Positions 1 through 16,805 of a DNA stretch of 64,000 bases are shown here, in pieces (position 1 is the stretch's first letter; every line of letters begins with the position of its first letter). The notes under the pieces were generated by a model. That model made no database searches, was not told the DNA's origin, and worked only from the letters and a program-made list of their open reading frames with translations. The translations under genes were made by a program, and so were the position numbers. This stretch comes from a virus: positions 276,342 through 340,341 of IMG/VR virus record IMGVR_UViG_3300020172_001601; one strand, 5' to 3'.

Positions 1-67
1 GCCCGGCTGCGAAGGCAGATGTAGGTCCAGTGTACCCTAGTGGGTGTCACCTAACGGGAGAAGTCGA

Positions 68-238
68 ATGTGGTATGTGATCCAAGATGACGATGGACCA
101 TTCCTGACGAATGAAACGCCTGCGGAAACAGATGTGATTCTGTTCCAAGGCACTATTGTCGAGGCCGAACGAGCCTTGCAGCGTGCTTGTGAAGATTGGG
201 AATCCGAACACGACGACATGAACGAGGACTTTCAATGA
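68..238 (+). CDS. Small acidic protein, unknown function (56 aa)
   Basis: First gene of the array. The start is ATG 68, because GGGAGAAG lies just upstream; an in-frame GTG at 44 lies inside the leader and lacks a ribosome-binding site. The product is acidic, ends in DDMNEDFQ and shows no motif I recognise. Its TGA overlaps the ATG of the next gene (ATGA), which implies translational coupling. Confidence 0.75.
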   Translation: MWYVIQDDDGPFLTNETPAETDVILFQGTIVEAERALQRACEDWESEHDDMNEDFQ

Positions 239-642
239 TTTTTGTAAGCGTCACAAAGAATGACGGCCAAGCCGTTGTTTCGATCAACGCTGCTCAGGAA
301 AGGAAGTATTTTCCTTTGACGAAGCGGGGTTGTATTGCTGCGGGTAAGTGGCTGGCTGAGATCGGAGCGGATAGTTGGAGCAATAGTTCCAGCGTTGACT
401 TCCCGAAAGAAGTCAAGCCTCGCTTCCGGCACAATGTTTCAGACCTGATGACTGAGGGCTTTCGGTCGGTGCCGCCTGTGGTCCAAGAGACTGTGGTTGG
501 CGACTACGAAATTCGTGGCAATCAATACGTTGCGATTGCCATCAACGTCAAGAACCCGAAGGACTCTCATTACTTCGACCCCGATGTGAACAACAACGCC
601 TTTATTCGAGCCTGTGGTTGGGCTTATGAACCGGAGGACTAA
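235..642 (+). CDS. Unknown protein, 135 aa
   Basis: Starts at ATG 235 in an ATGA overlap with the preceding stop, behind GAGGA. The sequence begins MIFVSVTKNDGQAVVSIN and looks like a soluble mixed alpha/beta protein with no membrane segment or metal motif. It shares a transcript with the genes on either side, since no GTGTACCC element separates them. I do not recognise the family. Confidence 0.75.
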   Translation: MIFVSVTKNDGQAVVSINAAQERKYFPLTKRGCIAAGKWLAEIGADSWSNSSSVDFPKEVKPRFRHNVSDLMTEGFRSVPPVVQETVVGDYEIRGNQYVAIAINVKNPKDSHYFDPDVNNNAFIRACGWAYEPED

Positions 643-894
643 ATGTCTTTTCCAAAAGACGGGACAGTGTTAAATGGGGCATTCTGGCTAAATGGGGAAT
701 CATGGCTAATCATGGAACCCCAAAAGCCACTGAATGAATATCTTGCACAATCATTGCAGGAGCAGCGGCAATACATTGAACGCCTGACCAAAAGGGCAGA
801 CGCACTGGAACAATGGCTGGCTAGGTCCAGTGTACCCTCAAGGGCAAGGAGAACAAAACATGGCAAGTCCTTGGAACGTGGTGGAACTGGTTGA
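643..894 (+). CDS. Unknown 83-aa protein whose C-terminus is encoded by the repeat element
   Basis: Starts at ATG 643, directly after the previous TAA and behind GGAGGA. The N-terminal two thirds includes a helical stretch around QSLQEQRQYIERLTKRADAL. The frame misses the TAG usually supplied by the intergenic element and reads through it as ARSSVPS, ending at TGA 892-894. It therefore overlaps the next gene by 35 bases. The basic tail may be an accident of cassette joining. Function unknown. Confidence 0.6.
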   Translation: MSFPKDGTVLNGAFWLNGESWLIMEPQKPLNEYLAQSLQEQRQYIERLTKRADALEQWLARSSVPSRARRTKHGKSLERGGTG

Positions 895-1297
895 GAAGCC
901 GAAAGGCAGTGTTGGCATGAGTCTGGCTGAGGCCGACAAGTTGCTGCGAACTGCGGGATATTTGCAAGGTGATTGGGACTATTTGAAGGACTATCACTTT
1001 GCGAAGTACGTTTACTTCGACATCAACACAGTGGAAGACGTGGAAGCCTTCCTTGTGAAGCTGGACAAGGACAACGAAGACCATACGAAACCTGGGCCAT
1101 TCCGATGGGGCTGCTCGAAGGCGAAGGGCATTCGGTCCTATTTGAAGAATGAAACATGGAAGAAGGACGAAACTTGGCTAAGGGCAGCAATATCCCACAA
1201 TCGTCGCATCATTTGTTCCTGCCATGAGGGTGGGTCATATAAGCGACGGGATGAACTGCCGATTGGTCATCAAGAGAGGCCGTGGGGGATGAAGTAG
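860..1297 (+). CDS. Unknown 145-aa protein with SPWxVVELVE motif
   Basis: ATG 860 is chosen because AAGGAGA lies just upstream; the frame also runs back to a GTG inside the repeat element. The N-terminus (SPWNVVELVEKPK) recurs inside the 274-aa protein encoded at 3267-4091, so the two share a small module. The C-terminal part is rich in Trp, Lys and His and has a CSC sequence. The stop TAG is the first triplet of the next intergenic element. Function unknown. Confidence 0.75.
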   Translation: MASPWNVVELVEKPKGSVGMSLAEADKLLRTAGYLQGDWDYLKDYHFAKYVYFDINTVEDVEAFLVKLDKDNEDHTKPGPFRWGCSKAKGIRSYLKNETWKKDETWLRAAISHNRRIICSCHEGGSYKRRDELPIGHQERPWGMK

Positions 1298-1349
1298 GTC
1301 CAGTGTACCCTAGCTGGTGTTGAGAGAACGAACTCGAACTGGAGAAATC

Positions 1350-2060
1350 ATGAAAGAACTCGAAGCTGCGTTGAACGAAGAGTTGGCGAAGGTGCTGGGT
1401 GCAAAGCACAACTGGATGGGCGTGATTGCCGGGGTTGCCGGTCGCCGAGCCAGTGAGTTTGCCCGGACGAAGAACGGTTTGCTGGAAGACGTTGTGACCG
1501 ACGTGACTGGCGACATCATTCTTCAGGCGAAGGAAGGCAAGCTGGCGGGTGCGGTGATTCGTGCCAAGGAAGCATCCCATACGGATGAAGAACTGGTGGA
1601 GAACTTACGGCACGTCGTCATGAAGGCGGCGTTCTACCGGGTGAGTGATGCCATGAAGTGGCGCTATCGCAGCGGCACTCAGTTCAGCCAGATCAGTGCT
1701 GAGAATGACTTCTCCGAGACTGTGGAAGCTCGCCCGGAAACCGAAACCGACTTGACCTATTACACGGACCTGTTGGTGAATGAGTTGGAAGTGATGGCGA
1801 CTGCTGCCGACTGGAAGCACAATCGCACCGGGAACCCCAGCTATCCGAAGCAGGCGAAGCGGTTACGGAAGTCCAAGGAAATGGTGCCGGATCGGGTCGA
1901 GGGGATGGCGTTGAAGGATTTGATGGAGAAGTACAGCGTCGGCAGCAAGGGCGGGATGCAACAGCATCTTGACGACATTGGGCAGGCACTTGCCCGTGTT
2001 GCCGGTCGGCTGGGTGATCCTACCTTGGTTCGAGGGACCAAGGGGATCGAGGTTGCTTAG
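1350..2060 (+). CDS. Possible sigma-70/ECF-like transcription factor (236 aa)
   Basis: ATG 1350 follows CTGGAGAAA. Residues about 44-110 (LLEDVVTDVTGD... then a helix ending SDAMKWRYR) resemble the pattern of sigma region 2. Residues about 184-222 (VEGMALKDLMEKYSVGSKGG...) look like a region 4 helix-turn-helix with the usual loop between. I rely on pattern resemblance only; catalytic-type signatures do not exist for this family, so the call is weak. If right, it is a candidate for recognising the surrounding repeated elements. A helical DNA-binding protein of another kind is the alternative. Confidence 0.4.
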   Translation: MKELEAALNEELAKVLGAKHNWMGVIAGVAGRRASEFARTKNGLLEDVVTDVTGDIILQAKEGKLAGAVIRAKEASHTDEELVENLRHVVMKAAFYRVSDAMKWRYRSGTQFSQISAENDFSETVEARPETETDLTYYTDLLVNELEVMATAADWKHNRTGNPSYPKQAKRLRKSKEMVPDRVEGMALKDLMEKYSVGSKGGMQQHLDDIGQALARVAGRLGDPTLVRGTKGIEVA

Positions 2061-2114
2061 GTCCAGTGTACCCTAGTGGGTGTAACAACCCACTAGACTT
2101 TGCGAGGGAATCAA

Positions 2115-2399
2115 ATGCCAAAAGGTCAATTGCCAAAAGATCAAATTGTATATCAGGTCGTCACTAAAGGTGGCGGCGTTGATGGTCGGGACCATACTGA
2201 CAAGGGCGGCAACATCAAGTTCGCATCCTTTGATCGTGCCGAAGCTGAGAAGCAAGTCACGGCATGGGATGACCTGAAGTTGGTTGCCATGAGTGGCAAA
2301 GAATTGCTGGCCCTTAAAAAGAAGGTCTTGGCAAAGTTGGACGGTGTTGAAAAGCTGGTGCTTGAGTTGCCCGCAACGGTGCGGACGAACAATTGGTAG
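2115..2399 (+). CDS. Unknown 94-aa protein
   Basis: ATG 2115 follows GCGAGGGA. The protein is basic at the N-terminus (MPKGQLPKDQIVYQVV) with an amphipathic helical middle (RAEAEKQVTAWDDLKLV). Its leader forms a perfect hairpin from the intergenic element: CTAGTGGGT pairs with ACCCACTAG at about 2074-2097. The stop TAG is supplied by the next element. Function unknown. Confidence 0.75.
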   Translation: MPKGQLPKDQIVYQVVTKGGGVDGRDHTDKGGNIKFASFDRAEAEKQVTAWDDLKLVAMSGKELLALKKKVLAKLDGVEKLVLELPATVRTNNW

Positions 2400-2455
2400 G
2401 TCCAGTGTACCCTAGTGGGTGTAACAGCCCACTGGACTTTGCGAGGAAGTGAACC

Positions 2456-2782
2456 ATGCGATTGAGATATGACTATTCAACAAAGATGTGCCGTGACCGA
2501 TTCGCAAGGATCGAGAAACTCGGCAAGATCAAGTTGGTGCGGGGCTATCGCTACTTTGGCCGGTACAACACGAGCCATGAAGCGGTGCTAGTTGTCGGAG
2601 AGAACGGCACTGCACGCTTCGGCGGGTTGTTGTGGGGTTATGGTGGCGAAGGTCCACGGGGATTGCAGGAACTATTGTTGAAGCTGAATGTGCCAGCGGC
2701 ACAAGCTGAAGCGATTGCTTTCTCAACACCCCGGAAGGATGAGATCGGCGAAGACTGGCGGCTGGTGCTGCCGGTCAACTAG
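2456..2782 (+). CDS. Unknown 108-aa protein
   Basis: ATG 2456 behind GCGAGGAAG. The central part is glycine- and tyrosine-rich (KLVRGYRYFGRYN, GGLLWGYGGEG). No membrane segment or catalytic motif is evident. The leader again carries a short hairpin using element sequence (AGTGGG with CCCACT). The stop TAG is the start of the next element. Function unknown. Confidence 0.75.
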   Translation: MRLRYDYSTKMCRDRFARIEKLGKIKLVRGYRYFGRYNTSHEAVLVVGENGTARFGGLLWGYGGEGPRGLQELLLKLNVPAAQAEAIAFSTPRKDEIGEDWRLVLPVN

Positions 2783-2844
2783 GTCCAGTGTACCCTAGTG
2801 GGTGTGCTGGTGAGTGTTTCAAAACCCTGTTTCGGAGAGATCGA

Positions 2845-3172: not shown

Positions 3173-3213
3173 AATAGCAATACCCAAATGAGAATCACTG
3201 GGCGGCGTTTAGG

Positions 3214-3225
3214 TCTAATGTACCC
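3214..3225 (+). promoter_or_regulatory. GTGTACCC-family element, TCTA form (candidate promoter)
   Basis: Core TCTAATGTACCC lies about 100 bases after the previous stop codon and not on it, downstream of a hairpin. It precedes the 274-aa gene. Promoter function is inferred from position. Confidence 0.5.
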
Positions 3226-3266
3226 TAGAGGGTGTTGAACACAACATCCTTGAATGCGAGGAAATC

Positions 3267-4489: not shown

Positions 4490-4502
4490 ACACCTTGCGA
4501 AG

Positions 4503-4514
4503 TCTAGTGTACCC
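4503..4514 (+). promoter_or_regulatory. GTGTACCC-family element, TCTAG form
   Basis: Core TCTAGTGTACCC is separated from the previous stop codon by a UUCG hairpin. It is intermediate between the TCTATTG and TCCAGTG forms. Candidate promoter for the nuclease-like gene. Confidence 0.5.
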
Positions 4515-4547
4515 TACGGGGTGTTCCAAGAAAGAAGAGGAGCTACT

Positions 4548-5153
4548 GTGAATGAGCTTGCGATTGCACGCCCCGGAAGTCTTGATCCCCGAACCCGTGT
4601 TCGTCACGGCAGAGAACGTGAACGGCAGATCGCCGTTGCGTTGAAGGATCAAGTGGGCCTCCCCATTACTGATGCCACTGAGTTCGAGGACAAAGAACGC
4701 AAGGTTGACCGATGGATCGCCTATCCTTCGGGCCGAGTTGCCCTTCAGATCAAATACCGAGAAGTCGGGGAAGACCTTCTGTTCGAGGTCTACGACAAGT
4801 TCTTCGGTTGGGATGATCCGAAGAACAAGCTGGGCCGGGATATGTTCGGCGATGCCAAGGAGTACGCCGTGCTGCTGGCTGACCGTCATACCGTCGTGAT
4901 GGTTCCGACACAGCTTGCCAAGGATACCGTCGCCAAGATGACGGAGAAGGCACGCAAAGAAGGTTTCACGCATGGAGCGGTGAGTTCAACTCTCCGCTAC
5001 TATGTTCACGGCCTGAAGCTGGAATTGAAGGTCCAGCGTGATCCCGGCGACGGACGCCAGAAGATGGTGGCATACATCCCCGCCAGCTACTTCGTGGCCG
5101 AGGCTCAAGCCAAGGTTTACCAAGTGGCACTGCCGAAGAAGTGGCAATCGTAG
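4548..5153 (+). CDS. PD-(D/E)xK nuclease-like protein (201 aa)
   Basis: GTG 4548 follows AGGAG at ideal spacing; earlier in-frame codons lie inside the repeat element. A helix with GREREROIAVAL-type spacing (Glu 23 and 25) precedes KVDRWIAYPSGRVALQIKYR, giving Asp 54, Gln 67 and Lys 69. That is the E...D-x(n)-(E/Q)xK layout of PD-(D/E)xK nucleases and resolvases. The reaction would be metal-dependent DNA cleavage; the target cannot be read. The stop TAG starts the next element. The call rests on motif spacing only. Confidence 0.45.
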   Translation: MNELAIARPGSLDPRTRVRHGRERERQIAVALKDQVGLPITDATEFEDKERKVDRWIAYPSGRVALQIKYREVGEDLLFEVYDKFFGWDDPKNKLGRDMFGDAKEYAVLLADRHTVVMVPTQLAKDTVAKMTEKARKEGFTHGAVSSTLRYYVHGLKLELKVQRDPGDGRQKMVAYIPASYFVAEAQAKVYQVALPKKWQS

Positions 5154-5154
5154 C

Positions 5155-5203
5155 TCCAGTGTACCCTATGGGGTGTGAAGACAATATTGCACCCCATAGG
5201 GAG
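5155..5203 (+). promoter_or_regulatory. Element plus 12-bp palindrome that sequesters the ribosome-binding site
   Basis: TCCAGTGTACCC (5155-5166) overlaps a perfect palindrome: CCCTATGGGGTG pairs with CACCCCATAGGG around a 14-base loop. The 3' arm contributes bases of the AGGGAG that serves the next start, so translation of the 73-aa gene could be controlled by folding or by cleavage. The usual element continuation TAGTGGG is replaced by TATGGGG and the distal arm changes to match, which is covariation within the family. Confidence 0.6.
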
Positions 5204-5549: not shown

Positions 5550-5605
5550 CTTATACTGACTATTGCATACCCTTCTCCATAGGGAGTATGGGGAAGAAAG
5601 TCAGG

Positions 5606-5617
5606 TCTATTGTACCC
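5606..5617 (+). promoter_or_regulatory. TCTATTGTACCC element (candidate strong promoter)
   Basis: Core in the TCTATTG form, 57 bases after the previous stop codon. What follows is not a credible protein gene but about 310 bases of highly structured sequence ending in a terminator, so it probably drives a non-coding RNA. Confidence 0.6.
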
Positions 5618-5926
5618 TAGCCGGTGTAATCGCAAATTACAACACCCAGCACGGGTGGAACGCCGAGAGCCACAGGAGTAAGCACAGAAAGCATCCTCGC
5701 TGCGAAAACAATCGAGGATCGACCCGGAATAAGCCGGTCAGACAGAGTGTGAAGGCAAGAGGGTAAGCCCCTCCCACAATATATCACTCTGAATCAGTGT
5801 GGCCACACTGAGTCTGATCGAACGAAGAAGGGCAGTGCCGAAACGACTGGACGGGCGAAAGTCAGTCACTTGCTGTTGCACAGTGCATCGAAGACCGAAG
5901 GGGACGCCCTTCGGTTTTTCTTTTTT
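5618..5926 (+). ncRNA. Structured non-coding RNA candidate, about 310 nt
   Basis: Bounded by a TCTATTGTACCC element and an intrinsic terminator. Readable helices include CACCC/GGGTG (about 5643-5657), ATCCTCG/CGAGGAT enclosing a purine-rich loop (about 5692-5718), GAGGG/CCCTC (about 5759-5770), CAGTGTGGCCACACTG (about 5796-5811) and GACTG/CAGTC (about 5848-5870). The one long open frame (5563-5766) crosses the element, has no ribosome-binding site and is unlike the neighbours. I looked for RNase P, tmRNA and 6S signatures and did not find them. Confidence 0.55.
5894..5926 (+). terminator. Intrinsic terminator of the 310-nt RNA
   Basis: ACCGAAGGG (5894-5902) and CCCTTCGGT (5907-5915) around GACG, followed by TTTTTC and TTTTTT. 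Confidence 0.9.
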
Positions 5927-5939
5927 CATTTTGTTTAGG

Positions 5940-5951
5940 TCTATTGTACCC
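5940..5951 (+). promoter_or_regulatory. TCTATTGTACCC element (candidate strong promoter)
   Basis: Directly follows the terminator's T-rich tail (TTTTGTTTAGG), ahead of the 62-aa gene at 5985. Confidence 0.6.
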
Positions 5952-5984
5952 TAGCTGGCACAACCCCTAACGAAAGGCAATGCG

Positions 5985-6173
5985 ATGAACGAACAAGAAT
6001 GGCTGGAAGCATTCAATGCCGAGTTCCTGCGTAAAACCGGCATCACATGGGCAGACGGTGGGCTGGAAGATCAGGACGCCATCAATCGCTACTTCCCGGA
6101 AGACGTGAAAGACGCTGTTCTCCAGCACATGGAGAAATACGACTTGGACGACGTGACCCAACTGTGGGCATAG
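5985..6173 (+). CDS. Acidic 62-aa protein, unknown
   Basis: ATG 5985 behind GAAAGGCAATGCG; an out-of-frame ATG at 5980 lies in the leader, and the same leader wording recurs before the gene at 12585. The protein is acidic and helical (WLEAFNAEFLRKTG... YFPEDVKDAVLQHMEKYDLDD). The stop TAG starts the next element. Confidence 0.75.
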   Translation: MNEQEWLEAFNAEFLRKTGITWADGGLEDQDAINRYFPEDVKDAVLQHMEKYDLDDVTQLWA

Positions 6174-6194
6174 GTCCAGTGTACCCTATTGGGT

Positions 6195-6325
6195 GTAATC
6201 GACCCGGCAACGCCCGAAAGATTCTAGGCAAGTACGGCGTAACCGTGACATTCCGATCATCCTGTTCACCGGCCTGCGGGTCAAAGGGGATAGAGAGTCG
6301 GGTCGATTACATTCTTTTTCTTTTA
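6195..6325 (+). ncRNA. Structured leader or small RNA closed by a 12-bp helix
   Basis: GTAATCGACCCG (6195-6206) pairs perfectly with CGGGTCGATTAC (6299-6310), enclosing 92 bases with at least one internal helix (ACGCC/GGCGT near 6209-6240). The closing helix is followed by TTCTTTTTCTTTT and then the AGGAG of the next gene. The U-rich tail makes the outer stem resemble a terminator, so this may be a riboswitch-like attenuator or a free small RNA. No known riboswitch consensus is apparent. Confidence 0.55.
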
Positions 6326-6337
6326 GGAGAACCTGCG

Positions 6338-6502
6338 GTGAAGAAAAAATACCTTATTGCTCTGCCTTCTTTCCCTAATTCCAAGGGATTCAATCATCGA
6401 ACCATTCTTGTCAGTGCAACCGACAAGAACGATGCCGTTAGCCTTGCCCGGCATTTGCGTCCGGGTGAAAACATTGGCGACATCAAGGAAGTGAACTACT
6501 AG
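6338..6502 (+). CDS. Small basic protein, 54 aa, unknown
   Basis: GTG 6338 with AGGAG at 6325-6329. Begins MKKKYLIALPSFPNSKG and contains VSATDKNDAVSLARHL. The open frame extends upstream through the structured leader, but only this start has a ribosome-binding site. The ribosome-binding site lies just beyond the 12-bp closing helix, so its expression could be coupled to folding of that RNA. The stop TAG starts the next element. Confidence 0.65.
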   Translation: MKKKYLIALPSFPNSKGFNHRTILVSATDKNDAVSLARHLRPGENIGDIKEVNY

Positions 6503-6558
6503 GTCCAGTGTACCCTAGTGGGTGTAACGATCACTCAACCCCTGCGAAAGAAACGACA

Positions 6559-6998: not shown

Positions 6999-7032
6999 GC
7001 ACGGCAACACTGACAATGTTGCCGTGCTTTTT
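6999..7032 (+). terminator. Intrinsic terminator
   Basis: GCACGGCAAC (6999-7008) with GTTGCCGTGC (7018-7027) and a TTTTTG tail. Confidence 0.9.
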
Positions 7033-7048
7033 GTTGGTCGTTGTTAGG

Positions 7049-7060
7049 TCTAGTGTACCC
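7049..7060 (+). promoter_or_regulatory. TCTAGTGTACCC element after a terminator
   Basis: Intermediate form. The downstream leader carries TTGGG (7063-7067) pairing with CCCAA (7078-7082). Both arms differ from the usual GTGGG/CCCAC pair, which supports a selected hairpin. Confidence 0.55.
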
Positions 7061-7096
7061 TATTGGGTGTAACGAACCCCAACCTGCGAGAATAAA

Positions 7097-7439: not shown

Positions 7440-7673
7440 ATGGCACGGCCTCAAGCATACGACCCGCAAGAGGGTTACAAGTATCAAATCCTGACCCGCA
7501 ATCCAGCGTATGGCAGAGCATGGGAGCATTGCGACTATGCGAAGGACAAGGACGAGAAAAACCACTTGATCGGCGAATATCGCTTGGCCTATGGTGCCGG
7601 GTGGGAATTCAAGGTCATCACGTTGCCCGTCAAGTATTGGCCGAAGAGGTCCAGTGTACCCTTGATGGTGTAA
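7440..7673 (+). CDS. Unknown 77-aa protein ending in an element-encoded RSSVP tail
   Basis: ATG 7440 behind AAGGAAAG. Tyr- and Trp-rich (YDPQEGYKYQILTRNPAYGR, YGAGWEFKVI). The frame runs through the intergenic element, so the protein ends KRSSVPLMV and stops at TAA 7671. Function unknown. Confidence 0.7.
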   Translation: MARPQAYDPQEGYKYQILTRNPAYGRAWEHCDYAKDKDEKNHLIGEYRLAYGAGWEFKVITLPVKYWPKRSSVPLMV

Positions 7674-8078: not shown

Positions 8079-8118
8079 ACCTGCCTGCATTCAAACCAAG
8101 GGTACAAATGACCTTACG

Positions 8119-8130
8119 TCTATTGTACCC
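8119..8130 (+). promoter_or_regulatory. TCTATTGTACCC element (candidate strong promoter)
   Basis: Strong-form core placed after the pseudoknotted RNA and before the 53-aa gene. Confidence 0.6.
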
Positions 8131-8165
8131 TAGTGGGTGTAACAAACAACAAGAAAAGGAACACA

Positions 8166-8327
8166 ATGAACCCTGCCCTGCAAGCTGCTTTGATTACACT
8201 CGTTCAAGTCATTGTGAAGCTGGAGCCGCATCAATTGGCTGCGGCCCTTGACGAAATCGACCTGAGCGATGAAGGGTTCGAGGAAGAACTCAATATTGTG
8301 AAGCAAGCCATCAAGTGGCAGGATTAG
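8166..8327 (+). CDS. Small helical acidic protein, 53 aa
   Basis: ATG 8166 behind AAAAGGAAC. Two helices (PALQAALITLVQVIVKLEP and an acidic second half ending AIKWQD). Stop TAG is the start of the next element. Function unknown. Confidence 0.7.
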   Translation: MNPALQAALITLVQVIVKLEPHQLAAALDEIDLSDEGFEEELNIVKQAIKWQD

Positions 8328-8380
8328 GTCCAGTGTACCCTAGTGGGTGTAACGAATAACAATCATCAAGGAAACCGATC

Positions 8381-8584
8381 ATGGCTCGCAAGACCAAAGA
8401 AGAAAAACGAATCGAAGCCGCTGTCGATGCCGCCTTCAGCAAGGTGGGCAACCGTCGCCAGTTCAACATCTTCGACCTGAGCAAGATTCAAGCCGCTGGT
8501 GTGGCTGCTGGCAAGGCCGGGGAGGACATTGAAGCCGCCGTGAGCAAAGCCTGCGATCAATACGAGATCAAAGAAGCAGCGTAG
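8381..8584 (+). CDS. Small helical protein, 67 aa
   Basis: ATG 8381 behind AAGGAAACC. Starts with a basic segment (MARKTKEEKRIEAAVDAAF), then DLSKIQAAGVAAGKAGEDIEA. Alanine-rich and helical; a small nucleic-acid-binding role is possible, but no motif is decisive. Stop TAG starts the next element. Confidence 0.7.
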   Translation: MARKTKEEKRIEAAVDAAFSKVGNRRQFNIFDLSKIQAAGVAAGKAGEDIEAAVSKACDQYEIKEAA

Positions 8585-8634
8585 GGCCAGTGTACCCTAG
8601 TGGGTGTAACGAACAAAACTAATGCGAGACACTC

Positions 8635-9072
8635 ATGAACACCTGCAAAACCTGCAAATCTTGGAATGATGGCATTTGTGAATTGGCTGATACGGTCACA
8701 GGGCCTAAATTGTTTGACATTGTTGTTAGGGTTGCCGACGATCACGGACTTGAAACATCATTGAGAACAGGTCCAGACTTCGGCTGCGTTCATCATTCAA
8801 GCCCTGCCGTGCGACTTGGCACGTTGAACGTAGAGACTGATTGGGATTTCAGTCTTGAATTGAATGGCACTGTTTACAGCGACAGCGAGTTTTCGATTGA
8901 TATTGATTCGATGGATCAATTGGAATCAATCCAAGTTATGGGGCCATTCGGTTCACCGTCTGGCGGCAAACAATGGGAAATCCTTGCAGCTTTGGAAGCA
9001 ATCAAGGCAAATCCTAGTGAGTTCTTTTCTAATCAGGGCGGCAACCGTGGGGCAATGTGGCATCCGAAATAG
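8635..9072 (+). CDS. Putative zinc-ribbon protein, 145 aa
   Basis: ATG 8635 after ATGCGAGACACTC. The N-terminus has CKTCKSWNDGIC (Cys 4, 7 and 14) and later GPDFGCVHH, which together could bind a zinc ion. The remainder is beta-rich and acidic (DWDFSLELNGTVYS...), with a helical end (LAALEAIKANPSEFF). A metal-stabilised small fold is inferred; function unknown. Confidence 0.65.
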   Translation: MNTCKTCKSWNDGICELADTVTGPKLFDIVVRVADDHGLETSLRTGPDFGCVHHSSPAVRLGTLNVETDWDFSLELNGTVYSDSEFSIDIDSMDQLESIQVMGPFGSPSGGKQWEILAALEAIKANPSEFFSNQGGNRGAMWHPK

Positions 9073-9107
9073 CTCCAGTGTACCCTGGTGGGTAAGGAGA
9101 TCAAACC

Positions 9108-9401
9108 ATGCTGACAACTGCGGAACGAATTGAACAAGCGACAGCTTACGGCGTAGGCACCAAAGCCTATGTTGACACCTTCGGGGGAATGGTCCCCTGT
9201 GTGGTCACGGAAATTCACAAGCCGAACGCCAATGGCATTGTCATCGGCCACGACGAATTGACCGTGCGAATTGAAGAAACCCGTGGGGGATATACGAAAG
9301 GCGAGATCGTCACACGGTCAGCCGCATACACTCCCCCACGAAAGCATCGTATCCTGCGGGGATACAGCTACCGAATCAACACGGCGTACAAGTACGTCTA
9401 G
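9108..9401 (+). CDS. Unknown 97-aa beta-rich protein
   Basis: ATG 9108 behind AAGGAGA. Strand-rich sequence (VDTFGGMVPCVVTEIHKPN, ELTVRIEETRGGYTKGEIVT) suggesting a small SH3- or Tudor-like barrel; this is inference from pattern. The stop TAG is inside the next element (TCTAGTG). Confidence 0.7.
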   Translation: MLTTAERIEQATAYGVGTKAYVDTFGGMVPCVVTEIHKPNANGIVIGHDELTVRIEETRGGYTKGEIVTRSAAYTPPRKHRILRGYSYRINTAYKYV

Positions 9402-9408
9402 TGTACCC
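9397..9408 (+). promoter_or_regulatory. TCTAGTGTACCC element overlapping a stop codon
   Basis: Intermediate-form core that also provides the stop TAG (9399-9401) of the preceding gene. What follows to 9805 is a 3-codon frame and structured RNA, not a normal gene. Confidence 0.5.
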
Positions 9409-9483
9409 TACATGGCAACACGGTATGGCTGCTCAAGTGGTGTTGCAGCATTGCTTGAGCATAACACGAGGAGAGAAAAACCA

Positions 9484-9745: not shown

Positions 9746-9753
9746 GGCATAGG

Positions 9754-9765
9754 TCTAGTGTACCC
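9754..9765 (+). promoter_or_regulatory. TCTAGTGTACCC element after structured RNA
   Basis: Lies 8 bases after the 18-bp helix and precedes the 121-aa gene. Intermediate form, as seen after other transcript boundaries. Confidence 0.5.
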
Positions 9766-9805
9766 TAGTGTGTGTAACGAACACTCAACCCTGCGAGACA
9801 AGAAC

Positions 9806-10237: not shown

Positions 10238-10303
10238 TGAAATCACAGGTCCAGTGTACCCTGGTGGGTGTGAATAACACCCACCACTTCTAAGGAATGC
10301 GAG

Positions 10304-10531
10304 TTGACTTACCAAGAATTGAAAGCAAAGGTCAGTGCAGCACTTGGCGACGTTGGATTTTCCATCGAAGCGACGGACGACGGCCAGTTGGTCATTTATA
10401 CCGACTTGAAAGAAGTCGAAGATCAGGACGAACTGGAGAACTACGAGCCGACGAATGAACCCTTGGAATCATTGGACGACTTTCTGAGAGAAGAGTTGGG
10501 CGACAAAGACGCTTCCCTGTTTCTCAAGTAG
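10304..10531 (+). CDS. Acidic 75-aa protein, TTG start
   Basis: No ATG fits; TTG 10304 has AAGGA just upstream. The leader holds a perfect hairpin, GGTGGGTGT with ACACCCACC (about 10263-10285), where an A-to-G change in the element is matched in the distal arm. The protein begins MTYQELKAKVSAALGDVGFS and is very acidic in the second half. Function unknown. Confidence 0.65.
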   Translation: MTYQELKAKVSAALGDVGFSIEATDDGQLVIYTDLKEVEDQDELENYEPTNEPLESLDDFLREELGDKDASLFLK

Positions 10532-10585
10532 GTCCAGTGTACCCTAGTGGGTGTAACGAACAACCTCAACACGGAGAACTCTGCG

Positions 10586-10816
10586 ATGGCTATTACGCTG
10601 ACCCCTTCCTATGGTCGTGACTACAAGAACGGCAAAGAAGTCCAAGAAGCCTGGGACGCTGGCAAGGACTTCACGATCAACTCCATCGGCCACCCGGACG
10701 ATGGGCGGCAGATCAACAAGCAGGACGCCGAACGTGAGGGCGGCACCTTCAACATCCGGTACAAAAAACTGACCCAGATCAAGGTCATCAAGGTCAAGAA
10801 GGTCGCTGCGGCTTAG
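10586..10816 (+). CDS. Small basic phage protein, 76 aa
   Basis: ATG 10586 behind GGAGAACTCTGCG. The sequence YGRDYKNGKEVQEAWDAGKDF followed by a Lys/Val-rich end (KVIKVKKVAAA) resembles a small conserved phage family of unknown function; I recall the pattern and cannot verify it. Stop TAG starts the next element. Confidence 0.7.
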   Translation: MAITLTPSYGRDYKNGKEVQEAWDAGKDFTINSIGHPDDGRQINKQDAEREGGTFNIRYKKLTQIKVIKVKKVAAA

Positions 10817-10842
10817 GTCCAGTGTACCTTACACAGTGTAAC

Positions 10843-11067: not shown

Positions 11068-11100
11068 AGGGCAGGACCAACCTGCCCTTTTTTTGTTTTT
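11068..11100 (+). terminator. Intrinsic terminator
   Basis: AGGGCAGG (11068-11075) with CCTGCCCT (11081-11088) around ACCAA, then TTTTTTG and TTTTT. Confidence 0.92.
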
Positions 11101-11111
11101 GTTTGTGTAGG

Positions 11112-11123
11112 TCTATTGTACCC
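11112..11123 (+). promoter_or_regulatory. TCTATTGTACCC element (candidate strong promoter)
   Basis: Preceded by GTTTGTGTAGG right after a terminator. The same upstream block is found at four other strong-form copies. The first thing downstream is the tRNA-like gene. Confidence 0.65.
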
Positions 11124-11149
11124 TAGAGGGTGTAACAAGCGAACAACAT

Positions 11150-11286: not shown

Positions 11287-11402
11287 TGCTTACACTGTAG
11301 GGCATTTGCCCGAACAACGAGGCGTCAGAACACGCCTACAACCCCGAAAGGGGAGAGAGTGTAAGGTAGCCGTAGTGTACCCTAGTGGGCAGGAGAACAA
11401 CA

Positions 11403-11561
11403 ATGCGAAAAACTGAAGGGGCAACCAAAGCCCACGCCTCTGTCGGGTATCACAAACACCTTCGACCATTCGGCAAGCGACTGGCGAACAAAGCCACTCG
11501 CAAGAATGGCAAGCGTAGCACCAGTGTACCCTATGGGGCAGGAGACAAACATGGAAATTGA
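11403..11561 (+). CDS. Small very basic protein, 52 aa
   Basis: ATG 11403 behind AGGAG (11390-11394). Rich in Lys, Arg and His (MRKTEGATKAHASVGYHKH...KRLANKATRKNGKR). The frame passes through the next element (SVPYGAG) and overlaps the following gene by 11 bases. Probably nucleic-acid-binding by composition; function unknown. Confidence 0.6.
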   Translation: MRKTEGATKAHASVGYHKHLRPFGKRLANKATRKNGKRSTSVPYGAGDKHGN

Positions 11562-11922
11562 AGACGTGCGAAATACCCGATCCATGAGAATGGACCCGGA
11601 AAGCCCTGCGGAATACGACGAGATGGACGCCATCACCGCTGGCCCCAATGGTATGAAATTGATGCCAGTGTTCAGCGGTGAGATGTTTCAACAGTCCGTT
11701 GCCTATCCCGTCATCGTGGAAGCATGGGACAAGAAGAACAGCGGACGCCACAAACGCCGATGGGAAGCGACATTCACCCAAGCCGAACGGAACAAGATCA
11801 GCCGGTATTATGGCCGGTTTTACCGCTGGTATCTGGTCAGCGGCACGCCCAAACGTGTGTCACTGCAATTGAACACCTTGACCCTCCTGCAAAGGGCAGT
11901 GAACTTCTTCGCTGAATGTTAG
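11551..11922 (+). CDS. Unknown 123-aa protein
   Basis: ATG 11551 behind CAGGAGAC. Acidic N-terminus (EDVRNTRSMRMDPESPAEYD), then a basic helical part (WEATFTQAERNKISRYYGRF) and a hydrophobic end. Stop TAG is supplied by the next element. Function unknown. Confidence 0.7.
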   Translation: MEIEDVRNTRSMRMDPESPAEYDEMDAITAGPNGMKLMPVFSGEMFQQSVAYPVIVEAWDKKNSGRHKRRWEATFTQAERNKISRYYGRFYRWYLVSGTPKRVSLQLNTLTLLQRAVNFFAEC

Positions 11923-11943
11923 GGCTAGTGTACCCTAGAGGGC

Positions 11944-12237
11944 ATGATGAAAGACGCATACGGAAACGATCAAGTATATCTGGTCCAGCCCACAACTCTG
12001 GACTATGAGATCAGCTATGGTGGCGATGGTGTCAAAACATGCCAAGAGGGACGCTATCGACACTATTTCACTGCCAGTGCTGGCGGTTTGTCGGGTAGCA
12101 TTAGAATTCAATTGAACCGAGTCAGCGCCGAACGGTTTGCTGCCTATAACGGCCTGCGGTTGATAACCGACGTTGAACGTGAAGAAATTCAAGAAAGGTG
12201 GAGCGTCAGAGTGCCGGATTGGTCCAGTGTACCCTAG
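11944..12237 (+). CDS. Unknown 97-aa protein with an extremely short leader
   Basis: The ATG pair at 11944/11947 lies only 8-11 bases after the element core (ends 11935). The only ribosome-binding candidate is GAGGG inside the element itself, favouring 11947. The protein ends DWSSVP because the frame reads the next element and stops at its internal TAG. If the element is a promoter, this mRNA would be nearly leaderless. Function unknown. Confidence 0.65.
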   Translation: MMKDAYGNDQVYLVQPTTLDYEISYGGDGVKTCQEGRYRHYFTASAGGLSGSIRIQLNRVSAERFAAYNGLRLITDVEREEIQERWSVRVPDWSSVP

Positions 12238-12274
12238 ACGGTGTAACGATCACTCAACCCTGCGGAGAATGACA

Positions 12275-12526
12275 ATGGTTCAATTGAAAGTCGTGGCTGT
12301 GTCGAGCAACCACAATAGTTTCGGCCTGCGAAACATGATCCTCATCGGGGACAATGGCGAAGGCTGGCAAGCTGCGGCCAATGACCTGAACGTGAAGCCG
12401 AAGGATACCATCCTGCGGATACCCGAAGGGCAGGACATTCCCACGTTCCTGACGCTGCAATCTTTCGAGATTCCTTCACAACTGGCCGACCCGCCTGCCG
12501 AACTATTGAAAGAAGTTTGGGGCTAG
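12275..12526 (+). CDS. Unknown 83-aa protein
   Basis: ATG 12275 behind GCGGAGAA. Begins MVQLKVVAVSSNHNSFGLRN, with likely strands and then an acidic helix at the end. The leader contains the common AACGATCACTCAACCCTGCG wording. Stop TAG starts the next element. Confidence 0.7.
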   Translation: MVQLKVVAVSSNHNSFGLRNMILIGDNGEGWQAAANDLNVKPKDTILRIPEGQDIPTFLTLQSFEIPSQLADPPAELLKEVWG

Positions 12527-12584
12527 GTCCAGTGTACCCTAGAGGGTGTAAGGAACACTTCAGTCCTCTGCGAAAGGCAATGCG

Positions 12585-12920: not shown

Positions 12921-12926
12921 GGCAGG

Positions 12927-12953
12927 GACGGGCAGTAATGCCCGTCTTTTTTT
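12927..12953 (+). terminator. Intrinsic terminator
   Basis: GACGGGC (12927-12933) with GCCCGTC (12940-12946) followed by seven Ts. Confidence 0.92.
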
Positions 12954-12968
12954 CTGAGTTTGTGTAGG

Positions 12969-12980
12969 TCTATTGTACCC
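12969..12980 (+). promoter_or_regulatory. TCTATTGTACCC element (candidate strong promoter)
   Basis: Preceded by GTTTGTGTAGG after the terminator. The downstream ATG is only 8 bases after the core. Confidence 0.65.
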
Positions 12981-12988
12981 TAGAGAAC

Positions 12989-13255
12989 ATGAGAGTCAGC
13001 AACACATTATTGATTTCCCTGTTTTATGAACCGGGAACGTCACATATTGCCGGAATTGAAAACCGAGCAATACAAGCGATGGAATTGGGGATGATTTCAG
13101 AACTCCCCAAGATCACTGTGGCGAAAAGTGAGAAGACACCATTCTGGCACTTGAAGCTGGAAGTCAAGGATGAAGATCGGCCATTCTGGTTCGGTTTTTA
13201 CTTAGGGAAAGACTTCTGCATCAACAATCGACCAATCACTGTCGGCTGTGATTAG
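12989..13255 (+). CDS. Unknown 88-aa protein, near-leaderless
   Basis: ATG 12989 sits 8 bases after the element core; only the weak AGAGA of the element could act as a ribosome-binding site. The protein begins MRVSNTLLISLFYEPG and contains WHLKLEVKDEDRPFWFGFYL. Probably a small beta-rich protein. Stop TAG starts the next element. Function unknown. Confidence 0.65.
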   Translation: MRVSNTLLISLFYEPGTSHIAGIENRAIQAMELGMISELPKITVAKSEKTPFWHLKLEVKDEDRPFWFGFYLGKDFCINNRPITVGCD

Positions 13256-13309
13256 GTCCAGTGTACCCTAGAGGGTGTAAGGAACACTTAACCCCCTGCG
13301 AGATACGCC

Positions 13310-13500: not shown

Positions 13501-13671
13501 ATGAAACTGGCAAGCATAGCGGTCGCATTCCTCCTGTTGGCGGGATGCGCCGCTCCTCCGAGACATTGGGAAGCTCCCCGTGAGCATTACCACAAGGAAT
13601 TAAGCGTCGAAGTCCGGGAAAGCGGCGATGGCCGTCCCCAAGTCGTTGCTACGTTCAAAATCACCAACTAG
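13501..13671 (+). CDS. Small lipoprotein, 56 aa
   Basis: ATG 13501 is preferred because AAGGA (13488-13492) is 8 bases upstream; ATG 13492 overlaps that site. The N-terminus MKLASIAVAFLLLAGC is a signal peptide with a lipobox (LAGC, Cys 16), so the product should be secreted and lipidated, leaving about 40 mature residues. Small phage lipoproteins act as outer-membrane spanins or superinfection-exclusion factors. Here the nearest genes do not encode a recognisable Rz partner, so the role is open. Stop TAG starts the next element. Confidence 0.75.
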   Translation: MKLASIAVAFLLLAGCAAPPRHWEAPREHYHKELSVEVRESGDGRPQVVATFKITN

Positions 13672-13725
13672 GTCCAGTGTACCCTATATGGTGTGAAGGA
13701 CACCAACAAAAAGGGAAACCAAGCC

Positions 13726-13922: not shown

Positions 13923-14066
13923 ATGTGCAAACTAAACTCTAAGGCAAGGAGGCTGCAAAAGGCAAGACGTTGGGCTGAAAAGATGCTGATCGACCTGAAG
14001 ACGTGGCCCGGTGGACTTGAAGACTTCGCCGAAGCACTTAGGTCCAGTGTACCCTATATGGTGTGA
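13923..14066 (+). CDS. Small basic protein, 47 aa, with element-encoded tail
   Basis: ATG 13923 behind GAAAGG. Basic helix (KARRLQKARRWAEKMLIDLK), then the frame runs through the intergenic element to end LRSSVPYMV at TGA 14064. Co-transcribed with the gene upstream (11-base gap). Confidence 0.55.
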   Translation: MCKLNSKARRLQKARRWAEKMLIDLKTWPGGLEDFAEALRSSVPYMV

Positions 14067-14325: not shown

Positions 14326-14356
14326 AAAGGGCAGCAAGTCGCTGCCCTTTTCTTTT
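14326..14356 (+). terminator. Intrinsic terminator, duplicated at 16169
   Basis: AAAGGGCAGC (14326-14335), loop AAGTC, GCTGCCCTTT (14341-14350), then TCTTTT. The hairpin and loop are identical to those at 16169-16193. Confidence 0.92.
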
Positions 14357-14371
14357 ATGTTTTTGTGTAGG

Positions 14372-14383
14372 TCTATTGTACCC
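14372..14383 (+). promoter_or_regulatory. TCTATTGTACCC element (candidate strong promoter)
   Basis: Preceded by TTTTGTGTAGG after the terminator. Drives the second thioredoxin gene. Confidence 0.65.
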
Positions 14384-14414
14384 TAGTGGGTGTCACACAA
14401 AGGAGACAATTGCG

Positions 14415-14762
14415 ATGATTACCAAAGTATCTGCTGACACGTTTCACAATGATGTTTACCACCACGATGGCCCTGTCGTCGTGACCTTCGGCTATACGGG
14501 CTGCGGCCCATGCCGTTCCTTGCAACCCAGCCTTGAGAAGCTGGCCGAAACTGGCGTCAAGGTCGTCAAGGTCGATATTGTCGATGACCCTGACATTGCC
14601 ACGCACTTCGGCATCAGCAGCGTGCCGACAACCCTGTTCTTCGCCCGTGGCGAACCACGATTGTCGTTCAATGGCGTTGCCAACGTCAAGAAGCTGCAAG
14701 CACTGCTGGCTGAAGCCGTGGCCGATGGCGAGAAGTCGCCCGCCGACCACGCCCATGCCTAG
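14415..14762 (+). CDS. trx2-like: Thioredoxin-fold protein, second copy
   Basis: ATG 14415 behind AAGGAGACAATTGCG. A 115-residue thioredoxin with GYTGCGPC (Cys 30 and 33) and cis-Pro 71 in GISSVPTT. The usual Trp before the active site is Tyr here, so redox potential or partner may differ from the copy at 4166. The His/Asp/Ala-rich tail (GEKSPADHAHA) is an extension beyond the family core. Cytosolic thiol-disulfide exchange is the expected activity. Stop TAG starts the next element. Confidence 0.9.
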   Translation: MITKVSADTFHNDVYHHDGPVVVTFGYTGCGPCRSLQPSLEKLAETGVKVVKVDIVDDPDIATHFGISSVPTTLFFARGEPRLSFNGVANVKKLQALLAEAVADGEKSPADHAHA

Positions 14763-14816
14763 CCCTAGTGTACCCTATAGGGTGTGATGGAACGAAACCT
14801 TCAACGGAGAACTGCG

Positions 14817-15056: not shown

Positions 15057-15064
15057 GGGCAACG

Positions 15065-15094
15065 AAGGACAGGGAAAGCCTCCCTGTCCTTTTT
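15065..15094 (+). terminator. Intrinsic terminator
   Basis: AAGGACAGGGA (15065-15075) with TCCCTGTCCTT (15081-15091) around AAGCC, then TTTC. Confidence 0.92.
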
Positions 15095-15113
15095 CTTTCT
15101 GAGTTTGTGTAGG

Positions 15114-15125
15114 TCTATTGTACCC
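15114..15125 (+). promoter_or_regulatory. TCTATTGTACCC element (candidate strong promoter)
   Basis: Preceded by GTTTGTGTAGG after the terminator; precedes the 61-aa gene at 15173. Confidence 0.65.
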
Positions 15126-15172
15126 TAGTGGGTGTGTCGAAGAGAACGAAACCTGTCCAACGGAGAACTGCA

Positions 15173-15358
15173 ATGGTGACTGCGACCATCGAAGGCAACG
15201 AACTCGTGATTCGCCTTCCCCTCAACACGCCCCGGCCCAGCGCCACGGGCAAGACGCTCGTGGTTGCCACGAGCAGCGGCAACAAGGCCACCGAAGCCGA
15301 AGTCAACGGGCAAAAGGTAGTCGTCGGCGTCAACGCCTACATCTACCCGCCCAAATAG
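15173..15358 (+). CDS. Small beta-rich protein, 61 aa
   Basis: ATG 15173 behind CGGAGAACTGCA. The pattern ELVIRLPLNTPRPSATGKTL then VVATSSGNKATEAEVNGQKV resembles a small family seen in phages and cyanobacteria, of unknown function. No catalytic residues evident. Confidence 0.65.
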   Translation: MVTATIEGNELVIRLPLNTPRPSATGKTLVVATSSGNKATEAEVNGQKVVVGVNAYIYPPK

Positions 15359-15365
15359 TCAACAA

Positions 15366-15404
15366 AAGGCAACACTAGGGTACGTCCAGTGTACCCTAGT
15401 GTGT
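15366..15404 (+). promoter_or_regulatory. Element inside a near-perfect inverted repeat
   Basis: AACACTAGGGTAC precedes the core TCCAGTGTACCC (15385-15396), and CACTAGGGTAC pairs with GTACCCTAGTG across it. Here the partner arm is upstream of the core; in other copies it lies downstream. Confidence 0.6.
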
Positions 15405-15438
15405 GTTGGGATCAATCACCTTCACTCAAGGATCGACC

Positions 15439-15684: not shown

Positions 15685-15752
15685 GGCTAGTGTACCCTAG
15701 AGGGTGTCCAACACGGACGAACGACAACCCCCTGCGAATGAGGAACTGAGTT

Positions 15753-16160
15753 ATGGCCACTACTGAAGTCAAGCTGGTATCGGAAATCATCGAAGCTGTC
15801 CCCGGCGTCAAGCGTGCGTTCCACGTCTTCACGCCAGCCCTTCAGCATCGCCTTGAGAACAACGCCAGCAACCTGCCGGTGATGGCCCTGCGGTCTTCAA
15901 TCCACAACTACGGCAAGATGAAGCTGTACGCTCGCATCGAATGCCTTGGGCCGTCCAGCCTTGACCCGCTGTTCGGCAACCCACTGCCCGGCACGGGTGG
16001 CCGTGGCGTGGCAATCATGTTCACCGAATTCCCCCTTCGGGTATGGTATCCCGAAGGGCAAAAGCCCCCGGTCGTTGACACGCCGGACGGACGCAACCCG
16101 AAGGACATACTTGAGGAAGTCAAGCTCAAGTATGAACTCGCCTTCCACGACGATTTCTAA
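15753..16160 (+). CDS. Unknown 135-aa protein
   Basis: ATG 15753 after GCGAATGAGGAACTGAG. Helical first half, Gly/Pro-rich centre (GNPLPGTGGRGVAIMFTEF) and a charged helical end. No recognised motif. Followed by the same terminator hairpin as at 14326. Confidence 0.7.
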   Translation: MATTEVKLVSEIIEAVPGVKRAFHVFTPALQHRLENNASNLPVMALRSSIHNYGKMKLYARIECLGPSSLDPLFGNPLPGTGGRGVAIMFTEFPLRVWYPEGQKPPVVDTPDGRNPKDILEEVKLKYELAFHDDF

Positions 16161-16168
16161 TCGTCAGG

Positions 16169-16199
16169 AAAGGGCAGCAAGTCGCTGCCCTTTCTTTTT
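16169..16199 (+). terminator. Intrinsic terminator, copy of the one at 14326
   Basis: AAAGGGCAGC (16169-16178), loop AAGTC, GCTGCCCTTT (16184-16193), then CTTTTTG. Confidence 0.92.
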
Positions 16200-16216
16200 G
16201 TTTATGTTTGTGTAGG

Positions 16217-16228
16217 TCTATTGTACCC
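16217..16228 (+). promoter_or_regulatory. TCTATTGTACCC element (candidate strong promoter)
   Basis: Preceded by GTTTGTGTAGG after the duplicated terminator. Precedes the 31- and 35-aa micro-genes. Confidence 0.65.
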
Positions 16229-16250
16229 TAGAGGGCAAGGAGATCGGCAC

Positions 16251-16346
16251 ATGACCTTTCGAGAGTGGTATCGGATGACCGAACGTGAGATTCGGTGGAA
16301 TCGCAGTTTCCTGTATCGTGTCTTCAACAAGATCGGACTCGCATGA
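16251..16346 (+). CDS. Micro-protein, 31 aa
   Basis: ATG 16251 behind AAGGAGATC. Basic and aromatic (MTFREWYRMTEREIRWNRSF...). The stop overlaps the next start (ATGA). Function unknown. Confidence 0.55.
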   Translation: MTFREWYRMTEREIRWNRSFLYRVFNKIGLA

Positions 16347-16450
16347 TTCGCAAAGCTCTGGCCTTCGTGGTCAACGTCTTCAACTTCCTCGTTCCTGCGA
16401 ACCAAGGGCCGCAACCGACGCCGCCCAACTACTTCGGCCCCTGCCCGTAG
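16343..16450 (+). CDS. Micro-protein, 35 aa, possible membrane anchor
   Basis: ATG 16343 in an ATGA overlap. A hydrophobic start (ALAFVVNVFNFLVPA) is followed by a Pro-rich tail (PQPTPPNYFGPCP). Could be a short single-pass membrane peptide, translationally coupled to the 31-aa gene. Function unknown. Confidence 0.5.
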   Translation: MIRKALAFVVNVFNFLVPANQGPQPTPPNYFGPCP

Positions 16451-16514
16451 TAGGTCAAGTGTACCCTAGTGAGTGCGGGCAATGTCGCCCGCCTCACTCT
16501 TGGGGTTTTACAAA

Positions 16515-16655
16515 ATGAAAAAGAAACATCGCAACGACAAGAACCACGGGCGCAACGGCTGGGTCGGTGGCAACCCACGCTATGCGGGCAAGGGATTCAA
16601 GAAGGGCGACCGAGCCAAGGCAAAGGCCGAAGCCCGTAGGTCCAGTGTACCCTAG
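16515..16655 (+). CDS. Small very basic protein, 46 aa, RSSVP tail
   Basis: ATG 16515; the ribosome-binding site is weak (GGGG at about 16500). Lys/Arg/Gly-rich (MKKKHRNDKNHGRNGWVGGN...GKGFKKGDRAKAKAEA). The last residues RRSSVP come from the element, ending at its internal TAG. Likely nucleic-acid-binding by composition. Confidence 0.55.
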   Translation: MKKKHRNDKNHGRNGWVGGNPRYAGKGFKKGDRAKAKAEARRSSVP

Positions 16656-16731
16656 TGAGCTAGTGTACCCTATGGTGCATAGTGCATAGTGCATAGCATA
16701 GACTATGCACTTCTTTATTCAAAGAAGCATA

Positions 16732-16743
16732 GGGTACAATAGC
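16732..16743 (-). promoter_or_regulatory. Reverse GCTATTGTACCC element
   Basis: Minus-strand copy of the strong form, followed leftward by CCTATGC and a hairpin. It points into the rightward array, so any transcript would be antisense or a short RNA. Confidence 0.5.
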
Positions 16744-16793
16744 CCTAACAATGTTGCATAATTAAAAACAAAACAATTATTCGAGAAAACATT

Positions 16794-16805
16794 GGGTACA
16801 ATAGA
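16794..16805 (-). promoter_or_regulatory. Reverse TCTATTGTACCC element
   Basis: Exact strong-form core on the minus strand preceded by TAGG, 180 bases past the stop of the last leftward gene. Confidence 0.5.

Follow-up and report, generated by a model that had tools for sequence, protein, structure and literature searches.

A lineage-specific 26-bp element arrayed between the small genes of a huge phage is a candidate promoter

Introduction

The nearest known kind of system to the locus described here is the promoter-early stem-loop (PeSL) cassette, which carries a sigma70-type early promoter. Our subject is a ~26-bp element that recurs between the small genes of an uncultured huge phage, known from a virus record of 340,341 bases (IMG/VR record IMGVR_UViG_3300020172_001601, named G000), analyzed in a window of 64,000 nucleotides that covers positions 276,342-340,341 of that record. 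The PeSL cassettes of T4-type phages (Arbiol et al., 2010; Comeau et al., 2014; cited in PMC4503421) combine a terminator stem-loop with a promoter between small genes of variable regions and are linked with whole-gene shuffling. The G000 array resembles them in pairing terminator stem-loops with a putative promoter between small genes, and perhaps in gene shuffling, and may work like a PeSL cassette. The fixed stem-loop distance of PeSLs recurs here in only one class of element (the TAT class). The array also differs in that its 26-bp element is novel, mostly without a stem-loop, fused to a stop codon and lineage-specific in sequence.

T7-type promoters form a contiguous block of ~23-26 bp with no separate -35 box and with a G-rich start. 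The G000 element shares these traits, but no polymerase of the T7 family (PF00940) was found in G000. The start-associated sequence (SAS) of Cluster K phages is a 13-bp motif with the Shine-Dalgarno core inside it, 3-7 bp from the start codon; like our element it is short, asymmetric, present in many copies in one orientation beside non-structural genes, and able to hold the upstream stop codon, and its extended form (ESAS) has upstream inverted repeats and a subcluster-specific consensus (PMC3203893). Its position is different, however: the G000 element lies ~46 nt before the start codon and does not include the ribosome-binding site, and it goes together with terminators. The stoperators of Cluster A mycobacteriophages are numerous repressor sites across the phage genome (PMC9283540); like our element they are asymmetric DNA sites that act, or in our case would act, on transcription, but they are genome-wide and read by the immunity repressor, whereas those of G000 all lie in a single 28-kb array and behave as partners of terminators. 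The 17-bp dyad repeats of Cluster O mycobacteriophages recall the element in being numerous (>30 copies) and partly intergenic, with deletions via recombination between copies on record, and are unlike it in being symmetric, without clear orientation, genome-wide and also found inside genes (PMC4351075).

In a partial coverage of the literature we found no description of such arrays in huge phages, and the passages of a huge-phage survey (PMC7162821) matched by word search mention no such element. Outside the phiKZ/AR9 type, next to nothing is known of how the largest phages control transcription. A per-gene, lineage-specific signal could delimit genes in otherwise unreadable small-gene regions and predict transcript starts. 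Here we propose, with a probability of roughly 0.62, that the element is a self-contained phage-specific promoter, paired with terminators as a composite cassette and read via a lineage-specific factor.

Results

An oriented array confined to 28 kb of the record

We counted GTGTACCC 33 times in the window, always on the + strand, against an expectation of 0.76. In the whole 340,341-base record it occurred 46 times on + and never on -, spanning positions 265,504-293,011. With the variants TTGTACCC/ATGTACCC counted in, the window holds 43 copies on + and two on - (16738 and 16800), and the sum of 45 agrees with the array size given in a preliminary description of this DNA. That description had limited the element to the first 16.8 kb, which is correct within the window; the array starts at record position 265,233, ~11.1 kb further upstream, and comprises 61 + and 2 - copies over 28 kb of the 340-kb record. 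Matches with at most one mismatch were confined to 265.2-293.2 kb. An IMG/VR motif scan returned one close relative, and three further single matches were taken as chance. We rejected a host-derived motif, as 84,980 bacterial and archaeal genomes gave two single matches and no array.

The element comes in two classes

The element has the consensus TAGGTCYAKTGTACCCTAGNGGGTGT, laid out as TAGGTC-(CAG or TAT)-TGTACCCTAGNGGGTGT. We distinguished two classes, TAGGTC-TAT-TGTACCC (n=13), mostly behind terminators, and TAGGTC-CAG-TGTACCC (n=34), directly behind genes; hybrids occur besides. In the CAG class, the element's own TAG is usually the gene stop, and genes are thus tightly packed. Among all 61 + elements, 39 overlap a stop codon that ends a gene of 35 codons or more, compared with 11.7% at random positions, and 34 do so at one fixed offset, that of the element's TAG, consistent with the earlier remark that the element usually carries the preceding stop codon. 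A ribosome-binding site and start codon follow 10-90 nt downstream in 64% of elements (median start distance 46 nt). Copies sit at nearly every gene boundary, as described earlier; at the right end, neither the last + copies nor the two - copies have an obvious gene downstream. Upstream of the TAG, the CAG class lacks any conservation and the TAT class shows a T-rich terminator tail. Inverted half-sites also occur upstream at a fixed spacing, N15 in G000 and in its relatives G001 and G002, and about one helical turn longer in G024, at N25 (plus or minus 1).

TAT-class elements follow terminators at a fixed distance

We scored terminators as hairpins with a folding energy (dG) of at most -12 plus a T run, in G000 and in two relatives, G001 (a 42-kb fragment, stretch L012) and G002 (46 kb, stretches L096, L098 and L099). 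A terminator lay upstream of 10 of 13 TAT-class elements but only 2 of 48 other elements in G000 (p=1.9e-7), with comparable splits of 5/7 versus 0/29 in G001 (p=5.6e-5) and 6/9 versus 2/38 in G002 (p=1.9e-4). The distance from the G000 stem to TGTACC was 24-28 nt in nine of the ten element-linked cases; in the tenth, which has an upstream half-site, it was 37 nt. The spacing to the core was mostly 25-28 nt in G001 and mostly 22-26 nt in G002. In a separate scan, nine of ten strong hairpins had an element 24-37 nt downstream, and the tenth was an element's own inverted repeat.

Sigma70-like promoters were not enriched in window positions 1-17000 (8 versus 9.1 expected), so the array shows no sign of the sigma70-type early promoter of PeSLs, and the element is the sole recurring sequence that we found between a terminator and the next gene. 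TAT-class elements also precede units that appear to be non-coding: the unit at 5628-5919, a tRNA-like unit at 11150-11290, and a ~80-nt terminator-ended unit at the start of the array. This arrangement argues against a purely translational role. The 5628-5919 unit is present in L012 too, and L096 seems to have it at the matching position. No known RNA family (Rfam) matched at the gathering score.

We observed no sign that the element acts as folded RNA. The mean folding z-score was +0.12 for the core, -0.23 for the element plus leader and -0.41 for the coding control, and a simple helix scan of the G000 element gave no convincing covarying helix. From these two results, we read the G000 element as a DNA signal. 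A hairpin within the element (ACCC-UAGU-GGGU), tried as the main explanation, was set aside because it folded no better than shuffles and its 5' arm is invariant.

The same three bases differ at all orthologous elements compared

Aligned blocks of G001 are mostly 87-97% identical to G000, with the same elements and other gene content. In G002, one array protein is 74% identical to its G000 counterpart; elements that follow genes read TAGTGTCAGTGTACCC, and those that follow terminators are mostly TAGTGTAATTGTACCC. We compared 34 one-to-one orthologous G000/G002 element pairs. TGTACCC was 100% identical and TAG 91-94%, with ungapped flanks at about 40%, whereas bases 4-6 were identical in 0, 2 and 0%; all pairs differ there. 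The exact exchange is GTC in G000 for TGT in G002 in 25 of the 34 pairs, and the remainder are one-base variants of these. The same three-base change at some 60 sites would be expected from an altered trans-acting reader; array-wide gene conversion would be the alternative. Such an all-copy change would be a natural experiment on the joint change of a promoter set and its reader.

A promoter-terminator cassette as the proposed role

Taken together, the fixed terminator spacing, the absence of a sigma70-like excess, the non-coding units, the lack of RNA folding and the coordinated three-base change lead us to favor a promoter. From anatomy and comparison, transcription probably starts at the elements, near GTGGGTGT. 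Bases 4-6 would be read by a trans-acting factor, and the CAG class, too, would be a promoter. The element would be a compact ~26-bp start site recognized by an RNA polymerase with a phage-specified sigma factor or activator. TAT-class copies, 24-28 nt behind strong terminators, would let transcription resume at the following gene or non-coding unit, and CAG-class copies would serve as weaker internal promoters behind genes that have no terminator. An identical sequence at every boundary would also let homologous recombination add, drop or move gene-plus-element units, and cassette-wise gene turnover looks like a by-product. The elements and terminators of the window are listed below.

22..47, +: element, CAG class; TAG is the preceding gene's stop
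822..847, +: element, CAG class
1295..1320, +: element, CAG class; TAG is gene stop
2058..2083, +: element, CAG class; TAG is gene stop
2397..2422, +: element, CAG class; TAG is gene stop
2780..2805, +: element, CAG class; TAG is gene stop
3210..3235, +: element, TAA variant
4499..4524, +: element, TAG hybrid
5151..5176, +: element, CAG class; TAG is gene stop
5602..5627, +: element, TAT class; precedes terminator-ended non-coding unit
5628..5919, +: apparently non-coding, terminator-ended unit flanked by two TAT-class elements; no Rfam match
5890..5919, +: terminator; next element core 25 nt downstream
5936..5961, +: element, TAT class, behind terminator
6171..6196, +: element, CAG class; TAG is gene stop
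6500..6525, +: element, CAG class; TAG is gene stop
6999..7027, +: terminator; next element core 26 nt downstream
7045..7070, +: element, TAG hybrid, behind terminator
7646..7671, +: element, CAG class
8115..8140, +: element, TAT class; upstream inverted half-site GGGTACAA-N15-TTGTACCC
8325..8350, +: element, CAG class; TAG is gene stop
8582..8607, +: element, CAG class; TAG is gene stop
9070..9095, +: element, CAG class; TAG is gene stop
9393..9418, +: element, TAG hybrid
9750..9775, +: element, TAG hybrid
10246..10271, +: element, CAG class
10529..10554, +: element, CAG class; TAG is gene stop
10814..10839, +: element, CAG class (ACCTTA variant); TAG is gene stop; then a stretch without clear gene
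11068..11088, +: terminator; next element core 28 nt downstream
11108..11133, +: element, TAT class, behind terminator, before tRNA-like unit
11367..11392, +: element, TAG hybrid
11516..11541, +: element, CAG class
11920..11945, +: element, TAG hybrid; TAG is gene stop
12219..12244, +: element, CAG class
12524..12549, +: element, CAG class; TAG is gene stop
12924..12949, +: terminator; next element core 24 nt downstream
12965..12990, +: element, TAT class, behind terminator
13253..13278, +: element, CAG class; TAG is gene stop
13669..13694, +: element, CAG class
14039..14064, +: element, CAG class
14326..14350, +: terminator; next element core 26 nt downstream
14368..14393, +: element, TAT class, behind terminator
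14760..14785, +: element, TAG hybrid; TAG is gene stop
15064..15092, +: terminator; next element core 26 nt downstream
15110..15135, +: element, TAT class, behind terminator
15381..15406, +: element, CAG class; with ~100 bp of flank found at another gene boundary in L012
15682..15707, +: element, TAG hybrid; TAG is gene stop
16166..16196, +: terminator; next element core 25 nt downstream
16213..16238, +: element, TAT class, behind terminator
16451..16476, +: element, AAG variant
16637..16662, +: element, CAG class, behind the array's last gene; no following gene on +
16655..16680, +: second, partial element, 18 bp beyond the 16637..16662 element
16722..16747, -: element, TAT class, facing into array
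16784..16809, -: element, TAT class, facing into array; TAGGTCTATTG in G000/G001, TAGTGTAATTG in G002

In the tRNA-like sequence at 11150-11290, the acceptor ends match and a long insert surrounds the anticodon region; ARAGORN predicted no tRNA in the window. The array ends convergently (window 16690-16830; L012 14620-14833; L099 2290-2460). Two - TAT-class elements stand there at a distance of 62 bp; the AT-rich stretch that separates them is conserved, as is a flank rich in C. G000, G001 and G002 all keep this arrangement together with its flanks, and the outer - element carries the GTC-to-TGT change. The right-end elements possibly serve a short regulatory RNA or a replication start.

Candidate readers of the element

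We searched for proteins that could read the element. A T7-type single-subunit polymerase was rejected as reader, since no PF00940 match was found in G000, in G024 or in the 42- and 46-kb fragments G001 and G002, and the T7 control was positive (9.9e-110). The cellular-type RNA polymerase beta subunit (PF00562) was not found either, with positive controls, although divergent phage subunits may be missed by this search. G000 encodes four proteins with sigma70 region 2, three of them above the family cut-off, all outside the array. The preliminary description had proposed testing whether the element clusters with sigma-like or polymerase genes. It does not: the former are located in other parts of the record, and the searches detected none of the latter. 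One of the four sigma70 region-2 proteins is FliA/WhiG-like, and its best solved structural relative is FliA. The sigma70-family proteins of G000 are candidate readers. The -10 box of FliA promoters is GCCGATAA, and the element of a further relative, G016, contains a similar GCCGATA, a resemblance that is suggestive only.

Comparable arrays in a wider clade of huge phages

The baseplate protein encoded at window 50419-51975 has 308 relatives in IMG/VR. Further relatives carry comparable arrays on different elements, most with a GTAC core. G024 (533 kb; stretch L104) has TTGTACC elements, eleven of them preceded by GGTACAA at a spacing of N25 (plus or minus 1). Terminators lie 50-54 nt upstream of nine copies, nearly all with the half-site, and 25-26 nt upstream of two without it. 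The element is TTTTGGTACGGT in G020 and G021 and TTAATTGTATTTTTGAAAC in G017, and G018 has the same 8-mers as G017 in reverse complement. G016 has a longer element with AAAGCCGATATATGGGTGTAACGA and shares the leader GGGTGTAACGA with G000. In the public 595-kb genome LR756511, AAGCTGTAC occurs in 55 copies on + in the first 19.5 kb and then on -; element strand tracks gene strand, the - copies accompanying what look like - genes. No enriched element was found in the examined stretches of the distant relatives G022 and G023, and we rejected some 8-mer enrichments in G020, G021 and G010 as further elements because they fall in repetitive and apparently coding stretches.

G024 carries a second intergenic element, AAGTTTCCGAACC-stem-loop-GGTCTTCC, in 16 copies in the array stretch (L104 2700-19800). 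Its stem shows covariation, with 91.1% of cells paired and a score of 0.332 that 0 of 500 shuffles reached. It begins near the gene stop, overlapping stops in 12 of 16 copies, and its first part also occurs elsewhere in G024. The signals behind terminators and behind genes are thus mostly different sequences in G024, the one behind genes probably being an RNA.

It is possible, though we put it somewhat below even odds, that across the clade a repeated promoter element drives a run of dozens of small genes and that its sequence has been exchanged at all copies together in one lineage after another, in step with a rapidly evolving specificity factor of the phage. The GTC-to-TGT change would then be a natural record of one such switch, and terminator plus start element would form a modular cassette unrelated to sigma70 promoters. 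The matching factor could be sought by its co-variation with the element across the clade, which is broad.

Repeats of other kinds were also seen. In G024 (L104), ATAGGGAG, often as CATAGGGAG, recurs beside start codons and resembles a start-associated sequence. G010 (stretch L125) contains the repeats AAGTCTTGTACTATA (tandem and inverted) and CGATAGGTAAGTGTAGGG at 5900-9900.

Discussion

Several observations sit uneasily with a promoter. The CAG class has no conserved -35 region, and no known promoter consensus fits the element, as noted earlier. At the right end, + elements stand behind the last gene with no gene downstream, and two - TAT-class elements face into the array. The G020 and G021 records have no match to sigma70 region 2, even though comparable arrays are present. 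In G024 it is an RNA-hairpin element that stands behind genes, so the CAG-class copies of G000 could do something else; this is the chief ground for caution about that class. An RNA-level function, that is, an intercistronic processing, stabilizing or translation signal in the mRNA, would suit the position of the element between stop codon and ribosome-binding site as well as the covarying, stop-overlapping stem of G024. Yet the G000 core shows neither a folding signal nor a covarying helix in the simple scan, and TAT-class copies lie downstream of terminators, where upstream transcripts should have ended, and before non-coding units; we consider this reading quite unlikely, and the RNA cleavage site among the earlier options unsupported for the G000 element. 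A DNA-level alternative is an operator or stoperator, an oriented binding site through which a repressor or roadblock protein of the phage would silence the array or set its timing, in the manner of the Cluster A mycobacteriophages. The asymmetric, oriented and intergenic copies, present by the dozens and overlapping stop codons, agree with this, as do the inverted half-sites at fixed spacing, and a repressor with switched specificity would fit the coordinated change. By itself, however, a stoperator leaves both the 24-28 nt terminator spacing and the TAT/CAG split unexplained, and it leaves the genes without promoters, given that sigma70-like promoters do not exceed chance. No repressor or lysogeny genes were identified, though no search for repressor genes was made. 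We regard a stoperator as unlikely.

Recombination, the third of the earlier options, enters most plausibly as a consequence of the repeated elements. The stronger version, in which a dedicated recombinase moves gene-plus-element cassettes as in integrons, draws on the comparison with G001: 19 of 27 edges of aligned blocks, where gene content changes, lie at -15..+45 relative to an element core, against an expected 16%. In part this figure follows from the layout itself, since genes are normally gained and lost at their boundaries and nearly all of these carry an element. Furthermore, a ~100-bp element-bearing piece (window 15329-15432) sits at a different boundary in L012 (5909-6008), and the last element lies behind the last gene. 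But ordinary homologous recombination suffices for such changes, an element also precedes the first gene, and terminator-linked copies keep their spacing. By eye, the consensus TAGGTCYAKTGTACCCTAG is not the GTTRRRY integron core, although no systematic search for core sites, integrases or recombinases was made. A dedicated recombination site is very unlikely, and a promoter, the first of the options listed earlier, is the reading that we favor.

Other genes in the window

Two genes of the array appear thioredoxin-like, one at 14415-14759 (Pfam Thioredoxin, 3e-18) and one at 4140-4470, the latter judged by eye only. At the right end of the record, the - strand of window 62828-63988 holds a long open frame of GPKLI-type repeats.

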